Source: Oscillospiraceae bacterium
GTDB lineage: Bacteria; Bacillota; Clostridia; Oscillospirales; Oscillospiraceae
Direction: 5' to 3'
DNA length: 38,881 nucleotides
NCBI GenBank assembly: GCA_015067885.1
Contig: SVLO01000020.1
Coordinates: forward strand, 1-38,881
Below the pieces are notes generated by a model. It ran no database searches, had not been told where the DNA came from, and saw nothing but the letters and a program-made list of their open reading frames with translations. This document shows, piece by piece, positions 4,205 through 20,877 of the stretch. A program made the position numbers and the translations under genes. Position 1 is the stretch's first letter. Every line of letters begins with the position of its first letter.

Positions 4205-5599
<1,395 letters not shown>

Positions 5600-7068: not shown

Positions 7069-7105
7069 AAAAAGTGGTATGCCCTGTGGGCATACCACTT
7101 TTTTT
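7068..7105. terminator. Bidirectional terminator between convergent genes
   Basis: An 11-bp stem GTGGTATGCCC (7074-7084) with loop TGT and its complement (7088-7098) is flanked by six A on the left and seven T on the right. It can stop the SpoIIQ-like gene rightward and the 7104-14213 operon leftward. It overlaps the stop codons of both flanking genes. Confidence 0.95.
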
Positions 7106-8165
7106 ACTTGCAGACGGTGTCCGAAATGATTTGAGAAAAAGCATCCAGCCGCTGGTCAATGCCGGGCAGACGCAAGGCCTCCCCGGGGGCGTTGGCCGTT
7201 TCCATGAGCGCGAAGTTGCCGGGCAGGTGGAAGGATTTGTTCATGTTCAGGCCGCCGATCAACTGCCGGGCCACCACGTCGCCGCCGGAGTAGCCGGACA
7301 CCACGATGGCGAACAGGGCCTTGTCGTAGAACCGGGTCTGACGGAACAGGGCGGTCAGGCGGTTGACGAAGGCGGTCAGGTTGGCGGAAATGGCGTCGTT
7401 GTAATTGGGGCAGACCATGACGATGGCGTCGGCCCGGCGGACGGCGGGGAACACCTCGTCCTGCATGACGCTGCCGTAGAAGCAGCCGCCCTGCTCCCCA
7501 AAGTGCAGGCACATGGTATAGGGACAGCCGGAGCAGTCGAACACCGTGCCGTTGCGCAGACCGATCTCGGTGATGGTACAGCGCTGCCTCAGCCGCGCGG
7601 CAACCGCGTCCCACAGGTCCAGTGTGTTGGAGATATGGTGGTTGGAGGCGTGGAGGACCAGCAACTCGGGCCGCTCCTTTTTTGCGGATGAATAGGCCAA
7701 GATCCGCTGCACCAATTCCCGGGCGGTGGCGTGATAGGCCTGCTCCGGTGTGCAGTTGAGGTTGTCCGCCTGCACCCGCAGGTTTGCCAAAGAGCCGGTC
7801 CCCTCCACCAGCGGACGGCCCACAAAGGCGCAGCCGGCCAAATTGGCAGCCAGGGTCAGCTCGGTGGCGGTGGACTTGGTGTACAGCTCACTTTCTCCGT
7901 CCACGATCAGGCCGGCGGTACAGCCGGTCAGCAGGGTGGGGTCCCGCCGAAGGGCCAGCAGCAATTGCTGATAGGCGGGATTGATACCGAATTGACCCAG
8001 GGGGACGGCGAACAGCAGCCGTTGGTCACGCAGGTCGCCAAGGGCGGCCATGTTGTTTACGATACGGTGGGGAACGTCGGCCAAGGCGTGGGTCAGCACC
8101 CCGTCCAGCCGGGGACAGCCACCCACGATTTGGGGATAAATAACAGTCAGGGACAAGGCGCTCAC
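7104..8165 (-). CDS. Two-part flavodoxin-like / NADPH-dependent FMN reductase-like protein
   Basis: A 353-residue protein. The C-terminal half (about 165-353) looks like the NADPH-dependent FMN reductase or flavodoxin-like fold: ELLVLHASNHHISNT at the first strand and phosphate loop, RRADAIVMVCPNYNDAISANLTAFVNRL at the second, and AIVVSGYSGGDVV at the third. The usual SPR.NS.T loop is replaced by SNHHISNT. Between them lie four cysteines, C211, C214, C219 and C228 (DCSGCPYTMC...GGC), as in iron-sulfur flavoproteins but with altered spacing. The N-terminal half (1-160) has alternating strands and helices and may be a second, diverged flavodoxin-like domain. It is the last gene of the three-gene operon, six bases after the dehydrogenase-like gene. 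Substrate unknown. Confidence 0.75.
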   Translation of the reverse strand: MSALSLTVIYPQIVGGCPRLDGVLTHALADVPHRIVNNMAALGDLRDQRLLFAVPLGQFGINPAYQQLLLALRRDPTLLTGCTAGLIVDGESELYTKSTATELTLAANLAGCAFVGRPLVEGTGSLANLRVQADNLNCTPEQAYHATARELVQRILAYSSAKKERPELLVLHASNHHISNTLDLWDAVAARLRQRCTITEIGLRNGTVFDCSGCPYTMCLHFGEQGGCFYGSVMQDEVFPAVRRADAIVMVCPNYNDAISANLTAFVNRLTALFRQTRFYDKALFAIVVSGYSGGDVVARQLIGGLNMNKSFHLPGNFALMETANAPGEALRLPGIDQRLDAFSQIISDTVCK

Positions 8166-8171
8166 CTGCCT

Positions 8172-9413
8172 TTACAGAATTTCTTTCAGATGCTTCGCCG
8201 CAGCCGCGATATGCGCAAAAAGCGGGTCGGGGATGTGGTCCAGCAGCTCGGTTTCCACGCCGTATGGGGTGTAACGGTTTTTGACACCCATGTAGATGCC
8301 GTCCAAAAACACCGAGCCGCAGTGCCACTGACCCCGCAGGGTCAACAGGATGGACAGCGCGCCGGAGGACAGGGCGGGGGCCACGTAGGGCTTGAACCCG
8401 ATCTCGCGCATTTTTAGGTTGGCGGTGAGGGTCAGCTCGGTCAGTTCCCGGGACAGGTCCTCGTCATAGTCGGCGATGGAGTTGGCCACCGTTAAGCCGG
8501 TTCCGTGGGGGCCGAAGGTGCGGCCCTCGGTAAGGAAGGAGGCAAACCGCTCGTCCCGCTTGGCGTAGTAGGCCGCCCGGGCGTTCATCACCCCAAGGCC
8601 GTACCCCTGCACCTGCTCGGGCAGCAGACCCTTGCCGTCCCAGTTGCCGTCCTCGTCCCGGTTGCTCTCCAAATAGGCGACCTTGGCAAGGGGGTCCACC
8701 GGGTCGGACACGGCGCACCACAGACCGCGGAAGTTGGCCTTTCGGGCCATTTTAGCGTAGTGGGCCACGATTTTGGCATTGTTCTCAAACTGGTACATCC
8801 GAACGTCCTTGATACCGGAGTCCACAGGGGGGATGCCTTTGGAGGCCACGAAGACGAACACATCGCAGTCGAACAGCCTGTCCGGGGTGATGACCTCCAC
8901 TTCAGGCATGGCATTATAGTCCCAGGGCAGGGCGATTTGCCCCAGCTCAAACTCCCACCGGGCGGTGATCTGCTCGGACAGGTCGCAGATACCGATGGAG
9001 GAGATGACGTCGCCCCCCAACAGCTTCAGACCGGTCAGCAGGGTGGAACCCACGTCGCCAATGGCCAAAACGTTGACCCGCTTTTTGCCGGGGACGGGCG
9101 GGGTCAAAGCGGATCGCCAGCCGGGGCGATCCACGTTCACCGCCGTCAGATGTCCTCGCTTCAGGGCGGCGGCAACCGGACCGTCCGGTTCCGGCCGGGG
9201 CAGGCGGGAGGCATCCAGCACCCTCAGGCTGTGAGGGTCGGCAAGCTGCCCCGGGTGGGTGACCCGGAAGCTGCCCCGGCCCAGCACACTGTCGCCGTGG
9301 ACGGCCACAAACAGCCGGCCCTCCGTGGGGGGCGGGGTGGATACGAACCCGGCCAAAGGTGTGGGGGACGCAAGGGTGGAATTGAGGTGGCAGTAGTAAT
9401 ACAAAGGGGTCAC
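8172..9413 (-). CDS. Lactate/malate dehydrogenase-like NAD-binding protein with N-terminal extension
   Basis: A 413-residue protein. Residues 1-110 are an extension I do not recognise (starts MTPLYYYCHLNSTLASPT). From 111 it resembles the LDH/MDH superfamily: a first Rossmann strand and glycine loop VNVLAIGDVGSTLLTGL (113-129), an acidic strand end ICDLSE, then VFVFVASKGIPPV, then NNAKIVAHYAKMARKANF and VSDPVDPLAKVAY (235-247). Of the catalytic residues, GPHG with H303 matches the proton-relay His region and R279 may match the substrate Arg, but the Asp that normally partners the His seems replaced (GVMNAR, 274-279). The substrate is therefore probably not ordinary lactate or malate, or the protein is not a standard enzyme. 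Middle gene of the operon, six bases from each neighbour. Confidence 0.7.
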   Translation of the reverse strand: MTPLYYYCHLNSTLASPTPLAGFVSTPPPTEGRLFVAVHGDSVLGRGSFRVTHPGQLADPHSLRVLDASRLPRPEPDGPVAAALKRGHLTAVNVDRPGWRSALTPPVPGKKRVNVLAIGDVGSTLLTGLKLLGGDVISSIGICDLSEQITARWEFELGQIALPWDYNAMPEVEVITPDRLFDCDVFVFVASKGIPPVDSGIKDVRMYQFENNAKIVAHYAKMARKANFRGLWCAVSDPVDPLAKVAYLESNRDEDGNWDGKGLLPEQVQGYGLGVMNARAAYYAKRDERFASFLTEGRTFGPHGTGLTVANSIADYDEDLSRELTELTLTANLKMREIGFKPYVAPALSSGALSILLTLRGQWHCGSVFLDGIYMGVKNRYTPYGVETELLDHIPDPLFAHIAAAAKHLKEIL

Positions 9414-9419
9414 CTCCGC

Positions 9420-12400
9420 TTAGGAATGGGCGCGCATCAGCAGCTCCAGATCGTTTTCCAAATAGACCGACGCGGCAAGGTTTGGATCATAGGACACGCA
9501 GCTGCCCTTGTCGGGGCAAAGGGGAAGCACAACCGCCTCGGGCAGGCGGCCCAGGGTCAGGTTGCGGGCGTACAGGGTGCGGTACTCCGCCTCCAGCACC
9601 TGCATGACAGCCTGGGCATTTTCCAAACAGCAGCGGGACAGATTGAAGATGGCTTTGTCCGGACACTCATCCTGGAAGTTGGGGCGCGCATAGGGCAGAA
9701 TGTGGTTGATGCCGGGCAGAAGGCCGGGGACGGGGGGCGCGGGTCGCCGGATGGTATCGCCGCCGATGAAGGGGTAGAGGGTGGACTCCACAAACCACTG
9801 GCGCATACGGGGGACAAAGTACACGCTGTCCACCGGGCGGCCACGCAGCTGCATCAGGTCCCGGCCGTAGCCGGACAACACGCCCACAAGTACGGTCTTT
9901 ACATGGACTCCCTCCTGCTGCAGGATGGGGTCCAGGGCCTTGATGCGGTTGCCGGGATGCATCAGGTCGTCCACCAAAATTACCGGGCGGTCAAAGGATT
10001 TGATGGTGCGGATCTGAGTGGGGATGGGGGAATAGTTGGGGAAGGCCTCGATGGTGTTGGAGCGCAGGTCGGGGGCAAATACCTTATCGGTGTGCAGAGT
10101 CTTGGTCACCGTGTTGGGTACCACCTTACTGCGCAGCAGCTTGCCAAAGGGTACACACATACATTCACCCAAAGTCCGGGGGACGGAGGGGGTGATGGGG
10201 ACATTGTTGATGGCGGTGATCTTCTCCAACAGCCGGTGGTGAATGACGTCGGAGGACAGGGTCAGCAGCAGACTGCCGGGGTGCAGCTCGGTCATGGCCC
10301 GCTGCAGCCGCTCGTGGCAGCGGCGCAGGGTGCGCAGCACCTTGGGGTTTTGGGACAGGGGGTGCTGAATGGTGGTTTCCAAATTTTGAATGAGAACGGT
10401 GGGGGCGTGCATATCCACCTGGTACAGGCTGCCGGCACCCTCCACCGGGCGGAAGCCCTGTCGGCGCAGCAAATCGTCGGTTTCCTCGTTGCAGTGGCCG
10501 GTGTGGGGATGGTACAGGGCGTAGGCGCAGTCCACCTCCACACAGCGGGCCAGCAGCTCGCTCAGCAGCAGTTGGGCCGGGTCCTGGGCCCGCCGCTCGG
10601 CGGCGGTGTGGATGGCGGTGATGAGCAGCACGGTGCCCGCGGACTGCAGGCGGATACGCTGGGCCAGCTCTGGGTCGTTCAGGGCGGAGAACAGTTGGGC
10701 GCAGGACAGGGTGCGATAGCTGATCCAGCCAAACAGCTTGTCGGGGTCGGCAATATCGCGCAGCAGAAGCAGCCGGTCCCCCGAGCGGGCCATGGCACGG
10801 CGCAGGGGGGCAAGGCCGGGGTGGATGGCAACGGCCCGGTCCAGCAGGGCATCCTCCGGGTGGTCGGCCCACTGGAACCGGAAGTCGCCCCGGCCCAGCA
10901 CGGGTTTGTTCTGCGTGTCCCGCAAATACAGGCCGTTCTGATAGATAAAGTCCTGAATGACGGGGTCGATATAGTTGGAGATGTCCCGGTTCAGGTCCAC
11001 GTTTTCCCGGATGCGGGAGGAACTGATGTCCTCCAGATGGGCGGGCAGCTGCAGCTGCAGAACCTGGCCGGTGATGCAGGACAGGTTGGGCTGCTTCTCG
11101 CCGGAACGGCGGAAGATGATGTGATTTCGCTGGTGGATGGAACCGGGGCAGGGATCGGCGCTGTAGGCCGAGGCGTTGGCCACCACGTCACCGCCGGCCA
11201 CGATGTAGACCTGACGCCCCTCAAACACCTGCTGCAGGCGGTCCAGATCCGCTGGGTTGGCGATGTTGACGGGGATGTGGTCGGGGAACAGGTGGACGTG
11301 GAAATCCCCGGCCACCGACATGCTGACCACCTGGCGGCGGATCAGGTGAGGCTGCGCCTTCTTGGACCAGGAGAACTCGTCCACAGCCAAATACACCTCA
11401 AAGCCCATGTCACGGATGGCCTGCACGATACCCTTGTGGGACAGGGTGAAGGGGTCAAATGTGCCGGGGAAGAAGGCCACCTTCTCCGGCGTGGAGAAGG
11501 TCATGGGGCCGCGGTCCAGCCGGTACAGGGACAGGAACCGGTAGATGTGGGACAGGGTAGAGGTGCGGTAGAAGAAGGTCAGCCGCTCCTCGTTGGGGGC
11601 AGCCTGGAGCAGGAACAGCAGCTTTTGATAGATGAGCGAGAAGGTGTGGGTCTTTTCCGCCATAGACAGATGGCTGCTTTCAAACAGGTACTTGCCGATG
11701 ACCAGCATGGCCTCCTGCCGCACGCTTTGGCGGTAGTGGGCCAGGCCCTGCAGCAGCATACCCAGCAACTCCTGCCGGCGGGCCTCGTAGACGGCCTCAT
11801 CCTCCGGGAATCGGGCGGGGTACTCGGGATAGTGCTGCAGCAGTACACCCACCGTGGACAGAGCCACGGAAACCACGCTGTCCATGGGGCTGCCCAGCAG
11901 CTTTTTCAGACCGGTGATCTGCTCATCCAGCTCCGTGGGGTGGAGGAACAGGGCGGCCTCGCCCAAGTAATCGGGGATGTACTTGGAGATCTCGTACTGG
12001 CCCATTTCCAGGCCCTTGCCCAGCTCCACCACCACCTCGTTGCGCTGCTCACGGCTGAGCAGGCCGATCAGGCGCACAAACGCCTGACCGGCGGCGTGGC
12101 GGACCACGACCCGCTCGGCCACCTTGACCAGGTTGGACAGGTGGGTGGCGATGTGCAGGATTTGGGCATGACGACCGTGTTCCACCTGATCTACCAGCAG
12201 CTCGATGTTCAGCGACTTGATGATCCAGGGGGTGGCGGTTTTCAGGTTGTTCAAAAACACCTCGCCGGTGACGTCCCGCTCGTGCAGCAGGGCGTGGTGA
12301 TGGGAGGTGTCCTCGCCGGAGGTTTCCAGCAGCTTATACTGCAGGAAGAGCATGGGCAGGTCGTTGCCCGGGTCCACGCTGCGGGCGATGTCGGCAATGC

Positions 12401-14213
12401 GGCGGCCGGCGGCGGTCTGGTCGGGCAGCGAGGAACTGAGGGTCAGCAGGAAACGCAGGGCGGCCACCCGCAGCCGCAGTTCACCCTGCAGGGCAAAGTG
12501 GGCGGCGAAATCCACCAGATGGAGGGTGGTCTGCTCGTCATACAGATGGGCGGGCAGATCGTGGAGGGCGTCCAGCAGGGTGAAGGCGGTGTCGGGCTGC
12601 ATCCGTTCCGGGTCGGCGTAGAACTTCAGCAGGGCGGATACGAAACGGTCGGTGTCCTCCTCACGACAATGCTCCAGCAGAGCGGCCACCACCAGCTTCA
12701 GGGTATAGCCGATGTGGGCGCGCTGGGGCTGAGTGGTCTTATGGTCGGGGTAAATCAGCTTGTTCAGATACTTTTCCCACAGAAGGAAGGGACGGTCCTG
12801 GGCGGGATCGGCGGGGGCATCGGCGGGCAACTGTTTGCGGTAGCCCAGGTTGAACCGGGCAATGATCTGACCCATGAGGGCGCCGGCCTGGCGGCGGATA
12901 TCACCCTCCCGATGGACCAGCAGTTCGTATAGGAAGGCAAGTGCCTGCTCCTTCTGCCGGGCGGACAGATAGGTGAAATACTCCTCGAACACGTCCAAAT
13001 AGGCCCGCAGCTGCTTCCAGTCCTTGGCGGAGCGGGCGGCCTCGATAATGTTGCCGAATTGCCGCTCGTTGCTCAGCGCGTGCATCAGGGCCAGGTTGTG
13101 GTCCACACTCATGGTGGTTATGGCGGCCACCATTTCGTCCGGGGTCATAACGGCGGGGTCCTTGGCGGCGGCGGGTGTTCCGGGGGCGCCGGTCAGGTCC
13201 ACATCGGCGCCCAGATGGCGCAGATAGTCCTCGAAGTCCGCTAATTTACCGTAGACAAACTCGTAACGGCGCAGCTTTTCCGCATCCACATTCTCCAGCT
13301 TGGTCAGAACGGCGCGGAAAGCCTGCTCCAGAGGCATAAGGGTGGTGACAAGATGACCGTGGGCGTCCGGTGCCTGCCGGGCGCGGAAGTCGGCGTAAAT
13401 CAGGCACAGGGACTCGGCGGACAGGGACTCCAGCTCCAGATCCCAGGTGGAGTGATTGGTGGCGATATGGCTGACATTCTCCAAATTGTGGGCCATGAGC
13501 CAACCGTCGGTGTAATAGTAGTGCAGATGGGGGACCCGCTCACCGGGGCGGCAGCCGAACTTGCCCAAATCGTGGCTGGCGGCAGCGGCGGATACCAGGG
13601 ACAAGTCGATGTTGACTCCGGCCCGGTGCAGCCCCTGAGCGGCGGTCATGGCAATGTAGTGTACCCCGGCGATGTGGCTGAGAGTTTCGTGCTCGGTCAG
13701 CTCCTCGCCCAGGCGCATCAGCTCATAGACATACTCCTGCCGCAGGGCGTTGAGGAAACGGTTATATTCCCGGGCGTTGTCGTAGGGGCGGAATTCCTCC
13801 TCCCGGAGAAAACGGAAATCACGGGCGCGGTCAAAGGGAAGACACTCGCCCTCATACTCAAACAGCACCTGCATGGCGCACAGCAGCAGATTGGCACCAT
13901 CGGCGTGGGCATCGGAATCGGGGGCGAAGTTGCCCGTCGGGAACATCAGGCTTTTTGCGTAGCGATAGCAGAAATCCAGCCAGCCGTCCCTGGGTTCTTC
14001 GGACAGGTGGGGCAGGATGTCGCTGCACAGCCGGACCACCGTGGCGCAGGACAAATGCTCCTTCAGGGGCAGCAGGTCGGACAGACCCACCGTCCAGGAG
14101 GGGGCGTGCAGCAGCGCCATCGCCGCCTGTTTGGTGGGGGCCATGGGCAGCCGCCGGGCGGCAAGCCGCTCGGCCGTGCGGGTGGTGAGCTGTTGGACGA
14201 GTTTTTCGTGCAT
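9420..14213 (-). CDS. Giant multidomain protein: HD + helical repeats + nucleotidylyltransferase + GNAT-like + PRTase-like
   Basis: A 1597-residue protein without signal peptide or membrane spans, so cytoplasmic. Visible parts in order: an HD phosphohydrolase-like region (about 165-290; HETLSH, then ASHDLGKFG with H214/D215, then HNLENVSHIATNHS); long alpha-helical, HEAT-like stretches (about 390-900); a cytidylyltransferase-fold domain (about 911-1100) with PGTFDPFTLSH (916-926) and ISSSRIREN (1063-1071), close to NadD/CoaD-type adenylyltransferases; a GNAT-like region (about 1110-1270; weaker); and a phosphoribosyltransferase-like domain (about 1320-1500) with the PRPP-loop motif VILVDDLMHPGNR (1411-1423). 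The first gene of a tight three-gene operon. The function is unknown; nucleotide or cofactor chemistry is an inference. The ribosome site AAAGGCGG before the ATG is modest. Confidence 0.85.
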   Translation of the reverse strand: MHEKLVQQLTTRTAERLAARRLPMAPTKQAAMALLHAPSWTVGLSDLLPLKEHLSCATVVRLCSDILPHLSEEPRDGWLDFCYRYAKSLMFPTGNFAPDSDAHADGANLLLCAMQVLFEYEGECLPFDRARDFRFLREEEFRPYDNAREYNRFLNALRQEYVYELMRLGEELTEHETLSHIAGVHYIAMTAAQGLHRAGVNIDLSLVSAAAASHDLGKFGCRPGERVPHLHYYYTDGWLMAHNLENVSHIATNHSTWDLELESLSAESLCLIYADFRARQAPDAHGHLVTTLMPLEQAFRAVLTKLENVDAEKLRRYEFVYGKLADFEDYLRHLGADVDLTGAPGTPAAAKDPAVMTPDEMVAAITTMSVDHNLALMHALSNERQFGNIIEAARSAKDWKQLRAYLDVFEEYFTYLSARQKEQALAFLYELLVHREGDIRRQAGALMGQIIARFNLGYRKQLPADAPADPAQDRPFLLWEKYLNKLIYPDHKTTQPQRAHIGYTLKLVVAALLEHCREEDTDRFVSALLKFYADPERMQPDTAFTLLDALHDLPAHLYDEQTTLHLVDFAAHFALQGELRLRVAALRFLLTLSSSLPDQTAAGRRIADIARSVDPGNDLPMLFLQYKLLETSGEDTSHHHALLHERDVTGEVFLNNLKTATPWIIKSLNIELLVDQVEHGRHAQILHIATHLSNLVKVAERVVVRHAAGQAFVRLIGLLSREQRNEVVVELGKGLEMGQYEISKYIPDYLGEAALFLHPTELDEQITGLKKLLGSPMDSVVSVALSTVGVLLQHYPEYPARFPEDEAVYEARRQELLGMLLQGLAHYRQSVRQEAMLVIGKYLFESSHLSMAEKTHTFSLIYQKLLFLLQAAPNEERLTFFYRTSTLSHIYRFLSLYRLDRGPMTFSTPEKVAFFPGTFDPFTLSHKGIVQAIRDMGFEVYLAVDEFSWSKKAQPHLIRRQVVSMSVAGDFHVHLFPDHIPVNIANPADLDRLQQVFEGRQVYIVAGGDVVANASAYSADPCPGSIHQRNHIIFRRSGEKQPNLSCITGQVLQLQLPAHLEDISSSRIRENVDLNRDISNYIDPVIQDFIYQNGLYLRDTQNKPVLGRGDFRFQWADHPEDALLDRAVAIHPGLAPLRRAMARSGDRLLLLRDIADPDKLFGWISYRTLSCAQLFSALNDPELAQRIRLQSAGTVLLITAIHTAAERRAQDPAQLLLSELLARCVEVDCAYALYHPHTGHCNEETDDLLRRQGFRPVEGAGSLYQVDMHAPTVLIQNLETTIQHPLSQNPKVLRTLRRCHERLQRAMTELHPGSLLLTLSSDVIHHRLLEKITAINNVPITPSVPRTLGECMCVPFGKLLRSKVVPNTVTKTLHTDKVFAPDLRSNTIEAFPNYSPIPTQIRTIKSFDRPVILVDDLMHPGNRIKALDPILQQEGVHVKTVLVGVLSGYGRDLMQLRGRPVDSVYFVPRMRQWFVESTLYPFIGGDTIRRPAPPVPGLLPGINHILPYARPNFQDECPDKAIFNLSRCCLENAQAVMQVLEAEYRTLYARNLTLGRLPEAVVLPLCPDKGSCVSYDPNLAASVYLENDLELLMRAHS

Positions 14214-14256: not shown

Positions 14257-14285
14257 ATTTTATCACACAAACCGCCGTGTAGCAA
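14257..14285 (-). promoter_or_regulatory. Promoter of the three-gene operon
   Basis: On the minus strand TTGCTA (14285-14280) and TAAAAT (14262-14257) are 17 bases apart, with a TGA extension just before the -10 box (extended -10). It stands 44 bases before the ATG of the giant gene. Confidence 0.65.
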
Positions 14286-15716: not shown

Positions 15717-16727
15717 TCAACCCAGGGAAATATCCCGGGTGGCGTAGGCGTTCAGGTCCTGCCCGGCGGTGTGGCCGGCCAAATACTCGTAATAGCCCTG
15801 ACAGCCGATCATGGCGCCGTTGTCGCCGCACAGCTTCAGCTCCGGCATATAGAGCTTTACGCCCGCCTGTTTGCAGGCCCGCTCCAAATCCGCCCGGATG
15901 CGGCTGTTGGCGGCCACGCCGCCGGCGATGGCCAGGGTGTTGTACCCGGTCTGGGCCACCGCCGCCATGGCCCGGGGGACCAGGCTGTCGCTGATGGCCT
16001 GACCGAAGCTGGCGGCAAAGTCAGGCAAATTCAGCTCCTCACCCTTCTGCTCGGCGTTGTGCAGCAGGTTCAGCGCGGCGGTCTTCAGACCGGAGAAGGA
16101 CATATCCAGCTCCGCGCCGCTGACGTGGGCCCGGGGGAACTCGTACCGGGTGGGGTCGCCCCCCTGACCCAGGCGGTCCATGGGGGCGCCGCCGGGGTAG
16201 CCGATGTTCAGTACCCGGCCCACCTTGTCAAAGCACTCGCCCGCCGCGTCGTCCCGGGTGCCGCCCAGCACCCGCATTTCGGTGTAGGACTGCACGTCCA
16301 CGATGATGGTGTTGCCGCCGGACACGCACAGGCAGACGAAGGGCGGCTCCAGCTCCGGGTGGGTGATGTAGTTGGCGGCGATGTGGCCCCGGGTGTGGTG
16401 GACGGGGATGAGGGGCACGCCCAGGGCATAGGCCACCGCCTTGGCAAAGTTGACCCCCACCAGCACCGCGCCGATAAGGCCGGGGGCGTAGGTCACCGCC
16501 ACGGCGTCAATGTCCCGGCGGGAAAGACCGGTCTGTTCCAGGGCCCGGTCGGCAAGGGCGCTGATGGCCTCCACGTGTTTGCGGGAGGCGATCTCCGGCA
16601 CCACGCCGCCGTAAATGGCGTGCATCTCCACCTGGGAGGCGATGCAGTCGCACAGCACCTGCCGCCCGTCCCGGACGATGGCCACCGCCGTTTCGTCGCA
16701 GGAGGACTCAATGGCTAAAATGTTCAT
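15717..16727 (-). CDS. tsaD: tRNA N6-adenosine threonylcarbamoyltransferase
   Basis: A 336-residue cytoplasmic enzyme of the ASKHA fold that transfers the threonylcarbamoyl group to A37 of ANN-decoding tRNAs (t6A). It begins with ILAIESSCDETAVAIV (3-18), has the metal-binding pair H111/H115 in HTRGHIAAN, the loop CVSGGNT, and the ending typical of TsaD (GDNGAMIGCQGY). The start at 16727 was chosen because MNILAIESSCDET is the conserved N-terminus and GGAGAGAGGAG lies just upstream. It is the last gene of the polA operon, four bases after the GNAT gene. The partners tsaB and tsaE are not in this window. Confidence 0.96.
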   Translation of the reverse strand: MNILAIESSCDETAVAIVRDGRQVLCDCIASQVEMHAIYGGVVPEIASRKHVEAISALADRALEQTGLSRRDIDAVAVTYAPGLIGAVLVGVNFAKAVAYALGVPLIPVHHTRGHIAANYITHPELEPPFVCLCVSGGNTIIVDVQSYTEMRVLGGTRDDAAGECFDKVGRVLNIGYPGGAPMDRLGQGGDPTRYEFPRAHVSGAELDMSFSGLKTAALNLLHNAEQKGEELNLPDFAASFGQAISDSLVPRAMAAVAQTGYNTLAIAGGVAANSRIRADLERACKQAGVKLYMPELKLCGDNGAMIGCQGYYEYLAGHTAGQDLNAYATRDISLG

Positions 16728-16731
16728 GGAA

Positions 16732-17340
16732 TTACTCCTCTCTCCACTCCGCCGGGGGGTTGGGCTTCTCACCCGGGGCAAGGGGGATTTGGATAAAGCG
16801 GTCGTAGACCCGCTTGGGCATGTGGTTTGCGTAGATGGTGCGGTGGGCCGCCAGTAGCTCCTCCGCCGTCACGTCCTCGTCACCCCGAATCAGGGTTTCG
16901 TAGTGGACGCCGTACAGGGCGCAGTCGTAGCCGCCGTAGCGGAAGCCGTTGCGGTAATAGAAGTCCAGCCGGCGGCGCTGGAGGGCAGCCTCGTCCGGGT
17001 CGGGGGAGGTGACCCCCTCCGACTCGCCGAACACGCCCCGGTAGTCCCGGTAGCGCTGGGCCAGCAGGTCAAGGCAGGCGGTGCCAAGGCCGCCGCCCCG
17101 CTTGCCCTCCATTACACCCAGGTAGTCCAGCAGGGCGAAGGGTACCCCCGGCTCCAGCCACATGAAGGCGTAGCCCAGCAGTTCGTCCCCCTCGTAGAGG
17201 CCCAGGGGCTCGTAGCGGCCCTTGTCCCGCATATCCTCGATGGCGGACAGGGGCTTCAACTCGCAGGGCGGGAACGCCTTTGTCATCTCTTGATTGTAAA
17301 GTGTTTTCGTTTCACACTTATTCAGCAGCTTCAGTTCCAT
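16732..17340 (-). CDS. GNAT family N-acetyltransferase
   Basis: A 202-residue protein with an acetyl-CoA-binding motif GGGLGTACLDLLAQRY (residues 82-97), preceded by a beta strand FALLDYLGVMEGKRG, and followed by YYRNGFRYGGYDCALYGV, the usual last strands of the fold. This supports the GNAT fold; the substrate is unknown. The C-terminal 55 residues, from DVTAEELLAAHRTIY onward, are an extension without a recognised motif. It overlaps rimI by 23 bases and stands just before tsaD, so it is translated with them. A role in modifying a ribosomal or tRNA-related target is possible from context only. Confidence 0.8.
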   Translation of the reverse strand: MELKLLNKCETKTLYNQEMTKAFPPCELKPLSAIEDMRDKGRYEPLGLYEGDELLGYAFMWLEPGVPFALLDYLGVMEGKRGGGLGTACLDLLAQRYRDYRGVFGESEGVTSPDPDEAALQRRRLDFYYRNGFRYGGYDCALYGVHYETLIRGDEDVTAEELLAAHRTIYANHMPKRVYDRFIQIPLAPGEKPNPPAEWREE

Positions 17341-18169: not shown

Positions 18170-20827
18170 TTAGTGGGCGTCGGCCCAGCTTTTGCCCCGG
18201 TGGGTGTCGGCCAGCAGGGGGACGGCCAGCTTGGCCACGTTCTCCATCTCCTGCTGCAGCAGGGCGCAGACCTGCTCCGCCTCGCCCTCGGGACACTCCA
18301 CGATCAGCTCGTCGTGGACCTGCAGCACCAGCCGGGCCTGCAGACCGTCGGCCAGCAGACGGTCACGCACCCGGATCATGGCCAGCTTGATGATGTCGGC
18401 GGCGGTACCCTGAATGGGGGCGTTGAGGGCCACCCGCTCGCCGAAGGAGCGCAGATTGAAGTTGGAGGATTTTAGCTCCGGCACCCAGCGGCGGCGGCCG
18501 AAGAGGGTGGCCACCCAGCCCTCGGCCTTGGCCTGCTCCACCACGGCGTCCATATAGGTGCGCACGCCGGGGTAGTGGGCGAAGTAGCGGTCCATGTAGT
18601 CCTTGGCCTCGGCCACGGATACCTTGATGTCCTGGGACAGGGAGAAGGGGGAGATGCCGTATACGATGCCGAAGTTCACCGCCTTGGCGCTGCGGCGCAT
18701 ATCGGACGTTACCTCCGACTGGGCCACGCCAAAGACCTGACTGGCCGTGATGGTGTGGATGTCCTCGCCGGAGTTGAAGCCGTCGATCATAGCGGCGTCG
18801 TTTGCCATGCAGGCCAGCAGCCGCAGCTCGATCTGGGAGTAGTCCGCGTCCACCAGCACCCGGCCCGCCGGGGCAATGAACATCTTGCGCAGCTCCGCGC
18901 CCAACTCGGTGCGGACGGGGATGTTCTGTAGGTTGGGCTCGGTGGAGGAAAGACGGCCCGTGGCGGTGACGGTATTTTGAAAACTGGTGTGAATTCGGCC
19001 GTCAGGCATAATTACTTTACCAAGTCCGTCCGCGTAAGTGGATTTCAGCTTGGTCAGTTGGCGATAGTCCAAAATCTGCTCAATGATAGGGTGCTGACCC
19101 CGCAGCTTTTCCAGCACCTCGGCATTGGTAGAGTAGCCCGTCTTGGTCTTCTTCACCGGGGGCAGGCCCAGCTTGTCAAAGAGCAGGGTACCCAACTGCT
19201 GGGTGGAGTTGATGTTGAATTGCTCCCCGGCCAGGTCGTAAATGGCGGTCTGGGCGGCCTCGATGCCCCGGGCCAGCATCTCGCCAAAGGTGACCAGGGC
19301 GCCCCGGTCCACAAAGAAACCGATCTGCTCCATCTCGGCCAGCACGGCGCAAAGGGGCAGCTCAATGTCGTAGTACAGCTTGTCCATGCCCAGTTCCGCC
19401 AGCTTGTCCTTCAACAGGGGATAGAGGTGGGCGATGAGGGCGGTGTGGGCGGCCCAATGCGCTGCCGGGGCGGTGGGGTCAGCCAGGGGGCCGAAGGCCT
19501 CCTCGTCCAGGAAATCCCCCTCGGGGAGCTGCAGGTTGAAGTAGTGCATGGCCAGCTTGTCCAAGTCGTAGCTGCCGTCGGTGGGGGAGAGCAAATAGGC
19601 GGCCACGCAGGTGTCAAAGGCGAAACCCTCGGTGGACAGCCCCTCCTCCAGCAGGCGGCGCTGGATGGGCTTGACGTCGTGGGCCGCTTTGGTCACTGCG
19701 GGGGAGAAAAACCCGCGCAGGAATTCGTTGTACCGGGGCAGACGGCTTGCAAGCAGCACGGCAGCCCGGCCGCCGTCCACCACGCACAGACCGTCCAGGG
19801 TGGGCAGGGGCAGGCAGGTGACAAACTCCGCCTGCTCGTACTGACCCAGCAGCTCCATGGCCCGCCGGTCGTCGGCCACCACCTCGCAGGGGCAGGTCAG
19901 ATCCACTTCGACGGAAGCCGGAGCGGCGTCGCCTGGGGCGGTCAGGCCGTACTTGTCGATGAGCTTGGCAAATTCCAGCCGCAGGAACAGGCTGTAAAGG
20001 GCGTCGTTATCCACCGCCTTTCGCAGGTTGGCGGCGGGGTCAAAGTCCACGGGGGCGTCGGTACGGATGGTGGCAAGGTCGTAGGACAGCCGGGCCATAT
20101 CCGCCCCTTCTGCCAGCTTGTTCACCACGCCGGGCTTGGCGGGGACCCCCGATTCCATCTCCGGCGCGGGCATAGCGGCGTACAAATCGTCAATGGACCG
20201 GTAGCGCTGAATGAGCGCCATGGCGGTCTTTTCCCCCACGCCCTTTACGCCGGGAATGTTGTCCGAGGCGTCGCCCATCAGGGCCTTCAGGTCGATGATG
20301 TGGATGGGGTCAAAGCCGTACTGCTCCCGGAAGGCGTCGGGGGTCATGTCCCGGGTCTCGGTGCGGCCCATGCGGGAGGATACCAGCTTGACGGTGGTGG
20401 TGTCGGTGATGAGCTGCAGGGAGTCCTTGTCCCCGGTGACGATGGTGGTGTGCCAGCCGGCGGTGGTGTCGATGGCGGCGATGGTGCCGATGAGGTCGTC
20501 CGCCTCCCACCCGTCCAGCTCGTAGGTGGGGATGTTCATGGCGTGCAGCACGTCTTTCAGCACCGGCATCTGGGCGGCCAGCTCCTCCGGCATACCCTTG
20601 CGCTGGGCCTTGTACCCCTCGTAGGCCAGGTGGCGGAAAGTGGGGGCCTTGCGGTCAAAGGTAACGCACAGGGCGTCGGGCTTGTCCTCGTCCAGCAGCT
20701 TGTTCAGAATGTTCAAAAACCCGAAGATGGCGTTGGTGGGCAGACCGTCCCGGGTGGTCAGATTTTGGCTGACGCCGTAAAAGGCGCGGTTGACGATGGA
20801 GTTTCCGTCCAGAACCATGAGCTTCAT
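18170..20827 (-). CDS. polA: DNA polymerase I
   Basis: An 885-residue replication and repair polymerase. The 5'-3' exonuclease (about 1-290) has LDGNSIVNRAFYGV at its start, GWEADDLIGTIA, VTGDKDSLQL and LMGDASDNIPGVKGVGEKTA. The middle region (about 300-480) has the 3'-5' exonuclease fold position but I see no DxE motif (LCVVDGGRAAVLL instead), so proofreading is probably lost, as in Taq and Bst enzymes. The polymerase domain has motif A with D662 (DADYSQIELRLLA), motif B (RRSAKAVNFGIVYG) and motif C with H838-D839-E840 (LQVHDELIVE). The start at 20827 follows AAGGAGG and gives the conserved MKLMVLDGNS. It heads the five-gene operon ending at tsaD. Confidence 0.97.
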   Translation of the reverse strand: MKLMVLDGNSIVNRAFYGVSQNLTTRDGLPTNAIFGFLNILNKLLDEDKPDALCVTFDRKAPTFRHLAYEGYKAQRKGMPEELAAQMPVLKDVLHAMNIPTYELDGWEADDLIGTIAAIDTTAGWHTTIVTGDKDSLQLITDTTTVKLVSSRMGRTETRDMTPDAFREQYGFDPIHIIDLKALMGDASDNIPGVKGVGEKTAMALIQRYRSIDDLYAAMPAPEMESGVPAKPGVVNKLAEGADMARLSYDLATIRTDAPVDFDPAANLRKAVDNDALYSLFLRLEFAKLIDKYGLTAPGDAAPASVEVDLTCPCEVVADDRRAMELLGQYEQAEFVTCLPLPTLDGLCVVDGGRAAVLLASRLPRYNEFLRGFFSPAVTKAAHDVKPIQRRLLEEGLSTEGFAFDTCVAAYLLSPTDGSYDLDKLAMHYFNLQLPEGDFLDEEAFGPLADPTAPAAHWAAHTALIAHLYPLLKDKLAELGMDKLYYDIELPLCAVLAEMEQIGFFVDRGALVTFGEMLARGIEAAQTAIYDLAGEQFNINSTQQLGTLLFDKLGLPPVKKTKTGYSTNAEVLEKLRGQHPIIEQILDYRQLTKLKSTYADGLGKVIMPDGRIHTSFQNTVTATGRLSSTEPNLQNIPVRTELGAELRKMFIAPAGRVLVDADYSQIELRLLACMANDAAMIDGFNSGEDIHTITASQVFGVAQSEVTSDMRRSAKAVNFGIVYGISPFSLSQDIKVSVAEAKDYMDRYFAHYPGVRTYMDAVVEQAKAEGWVATLFGRRRWVPELKSSNFNLRSFGERVALNAPIQGTAADIIKLAMIRVRDRLLADGLQARLVLQVHDELIVECPEGEAEQVCALLQQEMENVAKLAVPLLADTHRGKSWADAH

Positions 20828-20877
20828 GGCTGTACCTCCTTGCCCGGCGGCATACGCCACCAGTTTACTAACAACAT

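Follow-up and report, generated by a model that had tools for sequence, protein, structure and literature searches.

A co-occurring three-gene set of Clostridia pairs a predicted HD and NadD-like fusion protein with two redox-type partners

Results

A three-gene locus in an Oscillospiraceae genome

We analyzed a stretch of 38,881 nucleotides (contig SVLO01000020.1 of assembly GCA_015067885.1, forward strand, hereafter the window) from an Oscillospiraceae bacterium. The window carries three leftward genes at 7104-14213, here named A, B and C, which co-occur across genomes of Clostridia. An original prediction made from the sequence alone had described them as an operon joining a giant nucleotide-enzyme fusion to two redox-type proteins. 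All three open reading frames are present and intact. Gene A (9420..14213, minus strand) encodes a multidomain protein of 1597 amino acids. Gene B (8172..9404, minus strand; first called as 8172-9413) and gene C (7104..8156, minus strand; first called as 7104-8165) encode proteins of 410 and 350 amino acids, respectively, from likely TTG starts. The genes were initially placed six bases apart. The GTG codons behind these gaps fall within sequences resembling ribosome-binding sites (GGAGGTGA, AGGTGA), and database copies of B and C have 410 and 350 amino acids, matching TTG starts at 9404 and 8156. The likely starts are therefore these TTG codons, and the intergenic gaps are about 15 nucleotides each rather than six.

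The strong terminator that had been predicted is well supported. A bidirectional intrinsic terminator (7072..7100) lies between C and a convergent M23 peptidase gene and forms a near-perfect hairpin of -25.7 kcal/mol (z -8.5; equaled by 0 of 200 shuffles), which was absent from the output of an earlier simple scan. The proposed shared promoter fared less well. One candidate sigma-70 site was found upstream of A (TTGCTA-17-TAAAAT, 9 of 12 matches; 14257..14285, minus strand, thus read from 14285 to 14257), but the evidence is weak because the scanned region contains three such sites against a chance expectation of 1.8. The opposite strand of A and B holds an open frame of 1475 amino acids (8505-12932, plus strand), most likely an incidental result of codon usage.

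Co-occurrence and linkage of the three genes

All three proteins have many relatives. At E <= 0.001, 6740 of 7992 scored candidates were relatives of A, 6042 of 7999 of B and 3273 of 7992 of C. The 120 A matches listed all cover 100% of A, and A was matched in all but one of the 37 genomes from its genus, its own included. In a class sample of 341 genomes, strong A matches were found in 29 genomes from ten families. With the presence of B and C set at E <= 1e-20, B was found in 28 and C in 27 of these genomes, and neither was found in the remaining 312 (Fisher tests of co-occurrence with A, 3e-40 for B and 5e-38 for C). Weak A matches were set aside as ordinary NadD- or HD-type proteins: in the class 15 of 44, none better than E 1.4e-8, in the family 3 of 45 and in the order 3 of 6. 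The A-positive genomes with gaps, one missing B and C (G774) and one missing C (G833), are drafts of 84% and 82% completeness, respectively. Within the family, A is spread patchily (42 strong matches in 300 genomes), and across the order few genomes have it (strong matches in 3 of 295, one of these from outside the family).

Gene order was counted at the 61 of 80 named loci with at least 4 kb after A, leaving out 19 loci with less. B follows A in 59 of these loci, and the complete order A-B-C is found in 54. C is nearby yet inverted at L046. For L087 and L110, B and C adjoin each other at another place in the genome, and for L056, L066, L108 and L114 C lies elsewhere. In a further genome (G129), both B and C are located elsewhere. 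A search covering the six unlinked loci and G129 recovered B in all three cases lacking it next to A and C in all seven. The trio thus persists where linkage has been lost, and is present, linked or not, for all 61 loci. The original prediction had been staked against homologs that are scattered and not neighbors, and what was found is a trio both linked and co-occurring across genomes. Over 72 loci, the three proteins also track one another in pairwise identity (Spearman 0.86-0.91), for which vertical descent alone would suffice. Four loci titled Anaerolineaceae, Flexilinea or Chloroflexi (L068, L070, L072, L075) also carry the trio, which may reflect transfer between phyla or mislabeled bins. 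A known anti-phage defense system was considered and rejected: at E <= 0.01, none of the three proteins matched any PADLOC family, and A is present in 36 of the 37 genus genomes.

Two conserved site-residue sets in protein A

Protein A retains two full sets of catalytic residues. The HD phosphohydrolase domain (residues 176-278; 13380..13688, minus strand) has the candidate metal ligands H180, H214, D215, H231, H254 and D275 of the H...HD...D type, all six kept throughout 100 aligned A sequences, in agreement with the HD assignment first made. The Pfam HD family matches 30 of 40 A members (best E 7.8e-7), and the window's own copy falls below the cut-off (E 0.003). The second set belongs to an adenylyltransferase-type domain, likewise anticipated (residues 908-1098; 10920..11492, minus strand). 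Predicted structures covered residues 896-1597 of A as well as B, and a fold search with the model found a NadD fold for this domain, while single-sequence searches of the PDB gave nothing useful. In comparisons of the NadD motif set (GTFDP..H, Lys loop, ISSTxxR), the site residues G917, D920, H926, K951 and R1069, aligned to canonical NadD, are present in 100 of 100 A sequences. A lies well below the NadD equivalog cut-offs, with 19.8 bits against 112.45 for TIGR00482 and 25 against 150 for NF000840. Judged by its sequence, A is NadD-like and not a NadD member.

The genome has a canonical NadD of its own. On contig C35, a NadD-YqeK fusion of 398 amino acids (L139:913-2109) scores 138 bits against a cut-off of 112, and YqeK exceeds its family cut-off in all 28 same-genus genomes searched. 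This fusion is the housekeeping counterpart of the two catalytic modules of A, and its presence rules out A as the housekeeping NadD. That A is a mere extra NadD for ordinary NAD synthesis would fit the NadD-like fold and motif. With a canonical enzyme in the same cell, the score of A on the same model at only 19.8 bits and a co-occurrence with B and C that ordinary synthesis would not lead one to expect, this explanation is largely refuted and very improbable.

Additional copies of A bear on how the two domains relate. Three genomes carry a second A (L199, L200, L204) that has neither B nor C in its vicinity and adjoins a divergently oriented APH-like kinase gene. These copies show the HD motif, while the SS[ST]xIR pattern is missing in three of three and FFPG in two of three. 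Retention of HD where transferase motifs decay suggests, at the sequence level, separable roles of the HD and adenylyltransferase domains.

Remodeled and weakly matched regions of protein A

The remaining regions of A are less clearly assigned. A region at residues about 360-890 (11544..13136, minus strand) was read as helical repeats in the original prediction, and a Pfam scan found no repeat family above cut-off across it. Residues 1110-1270 (10404..10886, minus strand) adopt a predicted GNAT fold, as recovered by the fold search with the model. The GNAT-like assignment holds for the fold but not for the acetyl-coenzyme A (CoA) loop, which is degenerate: the pattern [QR]xxGx[GA] is present in only 4 and missing in 96 of 100 A sequences. 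A similar split applies to the phosphoribosyltransferase (PRTase)-like domain (residues 1285-1500; 9714..10361, minus strand). Pfam Pribosyltran gives weak matches in 14 of 39 A members (best E 0.0015) and none for the window's own copy. Profile comparison by hhalign with three PRTases reached a probability of at most 19%, and the fold-search rows, covering mainly model residues 13-203 and 215-374, barely reach this part. PRTase chemistry, which had been part of the proposed cofactor synthesis, is not borne out. The canonical phosphoribosyl pyrophosphate (PRPP) loop DDxx[ST][STG]Gx[ST] occurs in 0 of 100 A sequences and is remodeled to DDxxHxGxR, with H1419 and R1423 in 100 of 100 and both Asp residues in 98 of 100.

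Two redox-type partner proteins

As had been proposed, the partners are of redox type, B having an NAD-binding fold and C a match to a flavin-type family. B combines an LDH/MDH-fold (lactate/malate dehydrogenase) NAD-binding protein with an N-terminal extension of about 104 amino acids, and an LDH fold with a NAD-type Rossmann motif was found for it. Unlike L-lactate/malate dehydrogenase, B has this extension as well as Asp at the Asn140 position and Met at the Asp168 position, both in 88 of 88 sequences, confirming the changed catalytic residues noted initially. Arg171-, His195- and Arg109-like residues are kept in 88 of 88. The positions of Asp168, Arg171 and His195 are those we take to be equivalent by motif, in LDH numbering.

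C consists of an N-terminal part and an FMN_red flavodoxin-like domain (Pfam E 1.4e-18; 67.4 bits against a cut-off of 24) with a Cx2Cx4Cx8C motif. The predicted Cys cluster is evident as C211, C214, C219 and C228 (353-amino-acid numbering), which are invariant in 73 of 73 sequences. A profile search of the PDB with C gave no matches. C resembles FMN_red and iron-sulfur flavoprotein-like proteins in its domain and tight Cys motif, and differs in its extra N-terminal part, its Cys spacing and its partners A and B. Iron-sulfur flavoproteins are defined by their Cys spacing, and a cluster in C is putative.

The trio might be a redox complex for a 2-oxo or 2-hydroxy acid tied to glutamate. In such a complex, B would interconvert the acid with NAD(H), and C would pass electrons by way of flavin mononucleotide (FMN) and a cluster held by its Cys residues. 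The role of A would then be mainly that of scaffold and regulator. The LDH fold and retained Arg171-, His195- and Arg109-like residues of B, the FMN_red domain and four Cys of C, and the glutamate dehydrogenase (GDH) adjacency described below would all fit. Asp at Asn140 and Met at Asp168 should nevertheless cripple hydride transfer of the LDH type, and the two full site-residue sets of A go beyond the needs of a scaffold, making such a complex unlikely.

Nitrogen genes near the trio

Neighboring genes were surveyed at 133 loci, representing 124 distinct places (nine repeats, with no GDH locus among them), and were counted over 31 A lineages defined at 60% identity of A, which are not fully independent. 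GDH was found within 11 of 133 loci and 7 of 31 lineages. As a control, neighbor proteins were used as queries, with the same ranking for the 1090 of at least 120 amino acids and for all 1244. Under a stricter filter, GDH was found in six lineages, the most of any of the 1244 queries, followed by queries with four and three lineages. The query ranked second, with four lineages, is an open reading frame antisense to A itself. Its placement differs among loci: the GDH gene immediately precedes A in the same orientation at two (L135, L136), immediately follows C at two (L201, L202), converges with C at one (L203) and lies at a greater distance downstream at the remaining six. Five loci (L077, L079, L083, L084, L092) have genes for a histidine kinase and a YcbB-domain regulator in the interval that separates C from GDH, and at L069 the kinase, the regulator and GDH are all found downstream on the other strand. 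In B. subtilis, YcbA-YcbB (GlnK-GlnL) mediates a glutamine response, according to an excerpt of PMC2743287.

Other nitrogen genes lie between or beside members of the trio. In two genomes of another family, the ammonium transporter gene amtB and three split glutamate synthase genes, gltB1-B2-B3, are located between A and B (L205:7243-12446, L206:7918-13236). Genes for DUF1538 and PII-like proteins lie directly upstream of a relocated C in two further loci (L225:5029-7243, L226:5193-7473). These neighbors point to glutamate and ammonium, which are probably the metabolic setting of the trio.

The nitrogen context brings in the main rival explanation, a protein-modifying switch of the GlnD kind. 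The adenylyltransferase of A would then mark a protein (PII-like, GDH, B or C) by nitrogen status, the HD domain would remove the mark and the repeats would hold the target. GlnD, the uridylyltransferase/uridylyl-removing enzyme, similarly combines a transferase with an HD hydrolase in a nitrogen context and acts on the PII protein. A switch would account for the pairing of transferase and HD hydrolase in one chain, for neighbors such as GDH, glutamate synthase with AmtB, the GlnKL-like system and the PII-like gene, and for the helical repeats, if read as such. The PRTase-like and GNAT-like parts could be sensors, lacking standard loops. However, the transferase fold of A belongs to the NadD-type small-molecule family, as opposed to the Pol-beta fold of GlnD and GlnE, and the PII-like gene adjoins C in only two loci. 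GlnD also carries ACT domains. Family-profile scans found no ACT or GlnD family among A matches, with residues 1-895 of A lying outside the structure model, and we know of no protein-modifying enzyme of the NadD type. We consider such a switch rather unlikely.

At 5 of 133 loci (L048:8003-8443, L054, L060, L102, L116), B and C are separated by a macrodomain gene of the ADP-ribose type. Such a gene would suit a trio that repairs damaged pyridine nucleotides, as would the NAD-type fold of B and the YqeK-NadD precedent, as given in an excerpt of PMC9426524. HD would remove faulty dinucleotides, A would re-adenylate, and the flavoprotein would re-oxidize aberrant NAD(P)H species before they could poison GDH or other dehydrogenases. 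Proofreading is already covered by the housekeeping NadD-YqeK fusion, though, and repair leaves the patchy spread of A (42 strong matches in 300 family genomes) unexplained, so that this role appears improbable.

Elsewhere in the window are a class II tRNA synthetase gene (asnS-like; 4205-5599), tsaD adjoining a GNAT gene that is rimI-like by position (15717-17340, minus strand) and a gene for DNA polymerase I (18170-20860).

Discussion

A proposed dinucleotide system at the glutamate and ammonium node

We suggest that A makes and removes a NAD-like dinucleotide used by B and C in glutamate and ammonium metabolism, a reading that is quite possible if somewhat short of probable. A nucleotide made and removed by A is favored because the trio co-occurs, A has two catalytic residue sets and its partners are of redox type. 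The NadD-type domain would make the dinucleotide from a pyridine-type or other ribonucleotide as adenylyl acceptor. Like YqeK in relation to NadD, the HD domain might hydrolyze this dinucleotide or defective versions of it. The remodeled PRTase-like and GNAT-like domains may sense ligands rather than catalyze, and B and C, as predicted redox proteins, may carry or use electrons linked to the cofactor of A. In its most complete form, the proposal sees in the trio a redox system of gut Clostridia that is tied to nitrogen and has not been described before. A would make and destroy a dedicated NAD-like dinucleotide, its activity set by nitrogen and nucleotide ligands bound to the remodeled PRTase-like and GNAT-like domains. 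The cofactor would be used by B and C, tuning or driving electron flow at the GDH/glutamate synthase node. As a whole, we regard this fuller version as possible but doubtful. Two observations extend the original prediction: the pairing of HD and NadD modules as in NadD-YqeK, and the nitrogen-assimilation neighbors in several lineages.

Several findings weigh against a dinucleotide made and removed by A. The position of the canonical NadD Trp, which stacks on the pyridine ring, is Tyr in 98 of 100 A sequences, and the first His of HxGH is Thr or Ser in listed variants. The acceptor may therefore not be nicotinic acid mononucleotide (NaMN). With the PRPP loop absent, A would also not hold a complete route from base to dinucleotide. 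B may not be a dehydrogenase, given Met at the Asp168 position, and the helical repeats of A, should they be real, point to partners that are proteins and away from a role in small-molecule chemistry. Comparing the HD domain of A with YqeK by hhalign gave a weak match over 105 columns (probability 4.6%, P 0.0086). The nitrogen association is uneven as well. GDH is absent from the stretch covered in 122 of 133 loci, single-lineage neighbors are commoner by plain locus count (19 loci in one lineage), the lineages behind the recurrence of GDH are not independent, and the PII-like match in L225 and L226 falls below the Pfam cut-off.

If a dedicated dinucleotide is indeed made and removed by A, a large family, found here mostly in gut and rumen Clostridia, would represent an unrecognized nucleotide cofactor or signal system at the crossroads of ammonium and glutamate, which shapes amino acid fermentation by such bacteria. 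Mechanism aside, a trio in which an adenylyltransferase-hydrolase occurs together with an LDH-fold protein of changed residues and a flavoprotein with a Cys motif provides a test case for finding a new nucleotide. The database names "cytidyltransferase-related domain protein", "lactate dehydrogenase" and "NAD(P)H-dependent oxidoreductase" are called into question.

Comparison with known systems

A search of open-licence literature, judged by titles and the start of abstracts, found no description of such a three-gene set. GlnD differs from A in its Pol-beta-type transferase. A small make-and-break protein with Nudix in place of HD is not known to have redox partners like B and C. Its logic of making and breaking in one protein, according to an excerpt of PMC9503650, is shared with A. 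The closest likeness is to the NadD-YqeK fusion, represented by JCVISYN3A_0380 and by the copy in the same genome. An excerpt of PMC9426524 describes for JCVI-Syn3A that the YqeK part of the fusion hydrolyzes analogs of nicotinic acid adenine dinucleotide (NaAD) that NadD can form. Both the fusion and, by prediction, A have an adenylyltransferase of the NaMN type and an HD hydrolase in one chain. In A, however, the order of the domains is reversed with about 630 residues between them, GNAT-like and PRTase-like parts are added, two redox-type partners co-occur and a separate NadD-YqeK coexists in the same cell. Common descent of the HD domain from YqeK is not claimed because the profile comparison is weak. 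By analogy, A would be a further protein that rests on make-and-break pairing of the NadD-YqeK type, with the order reversed.

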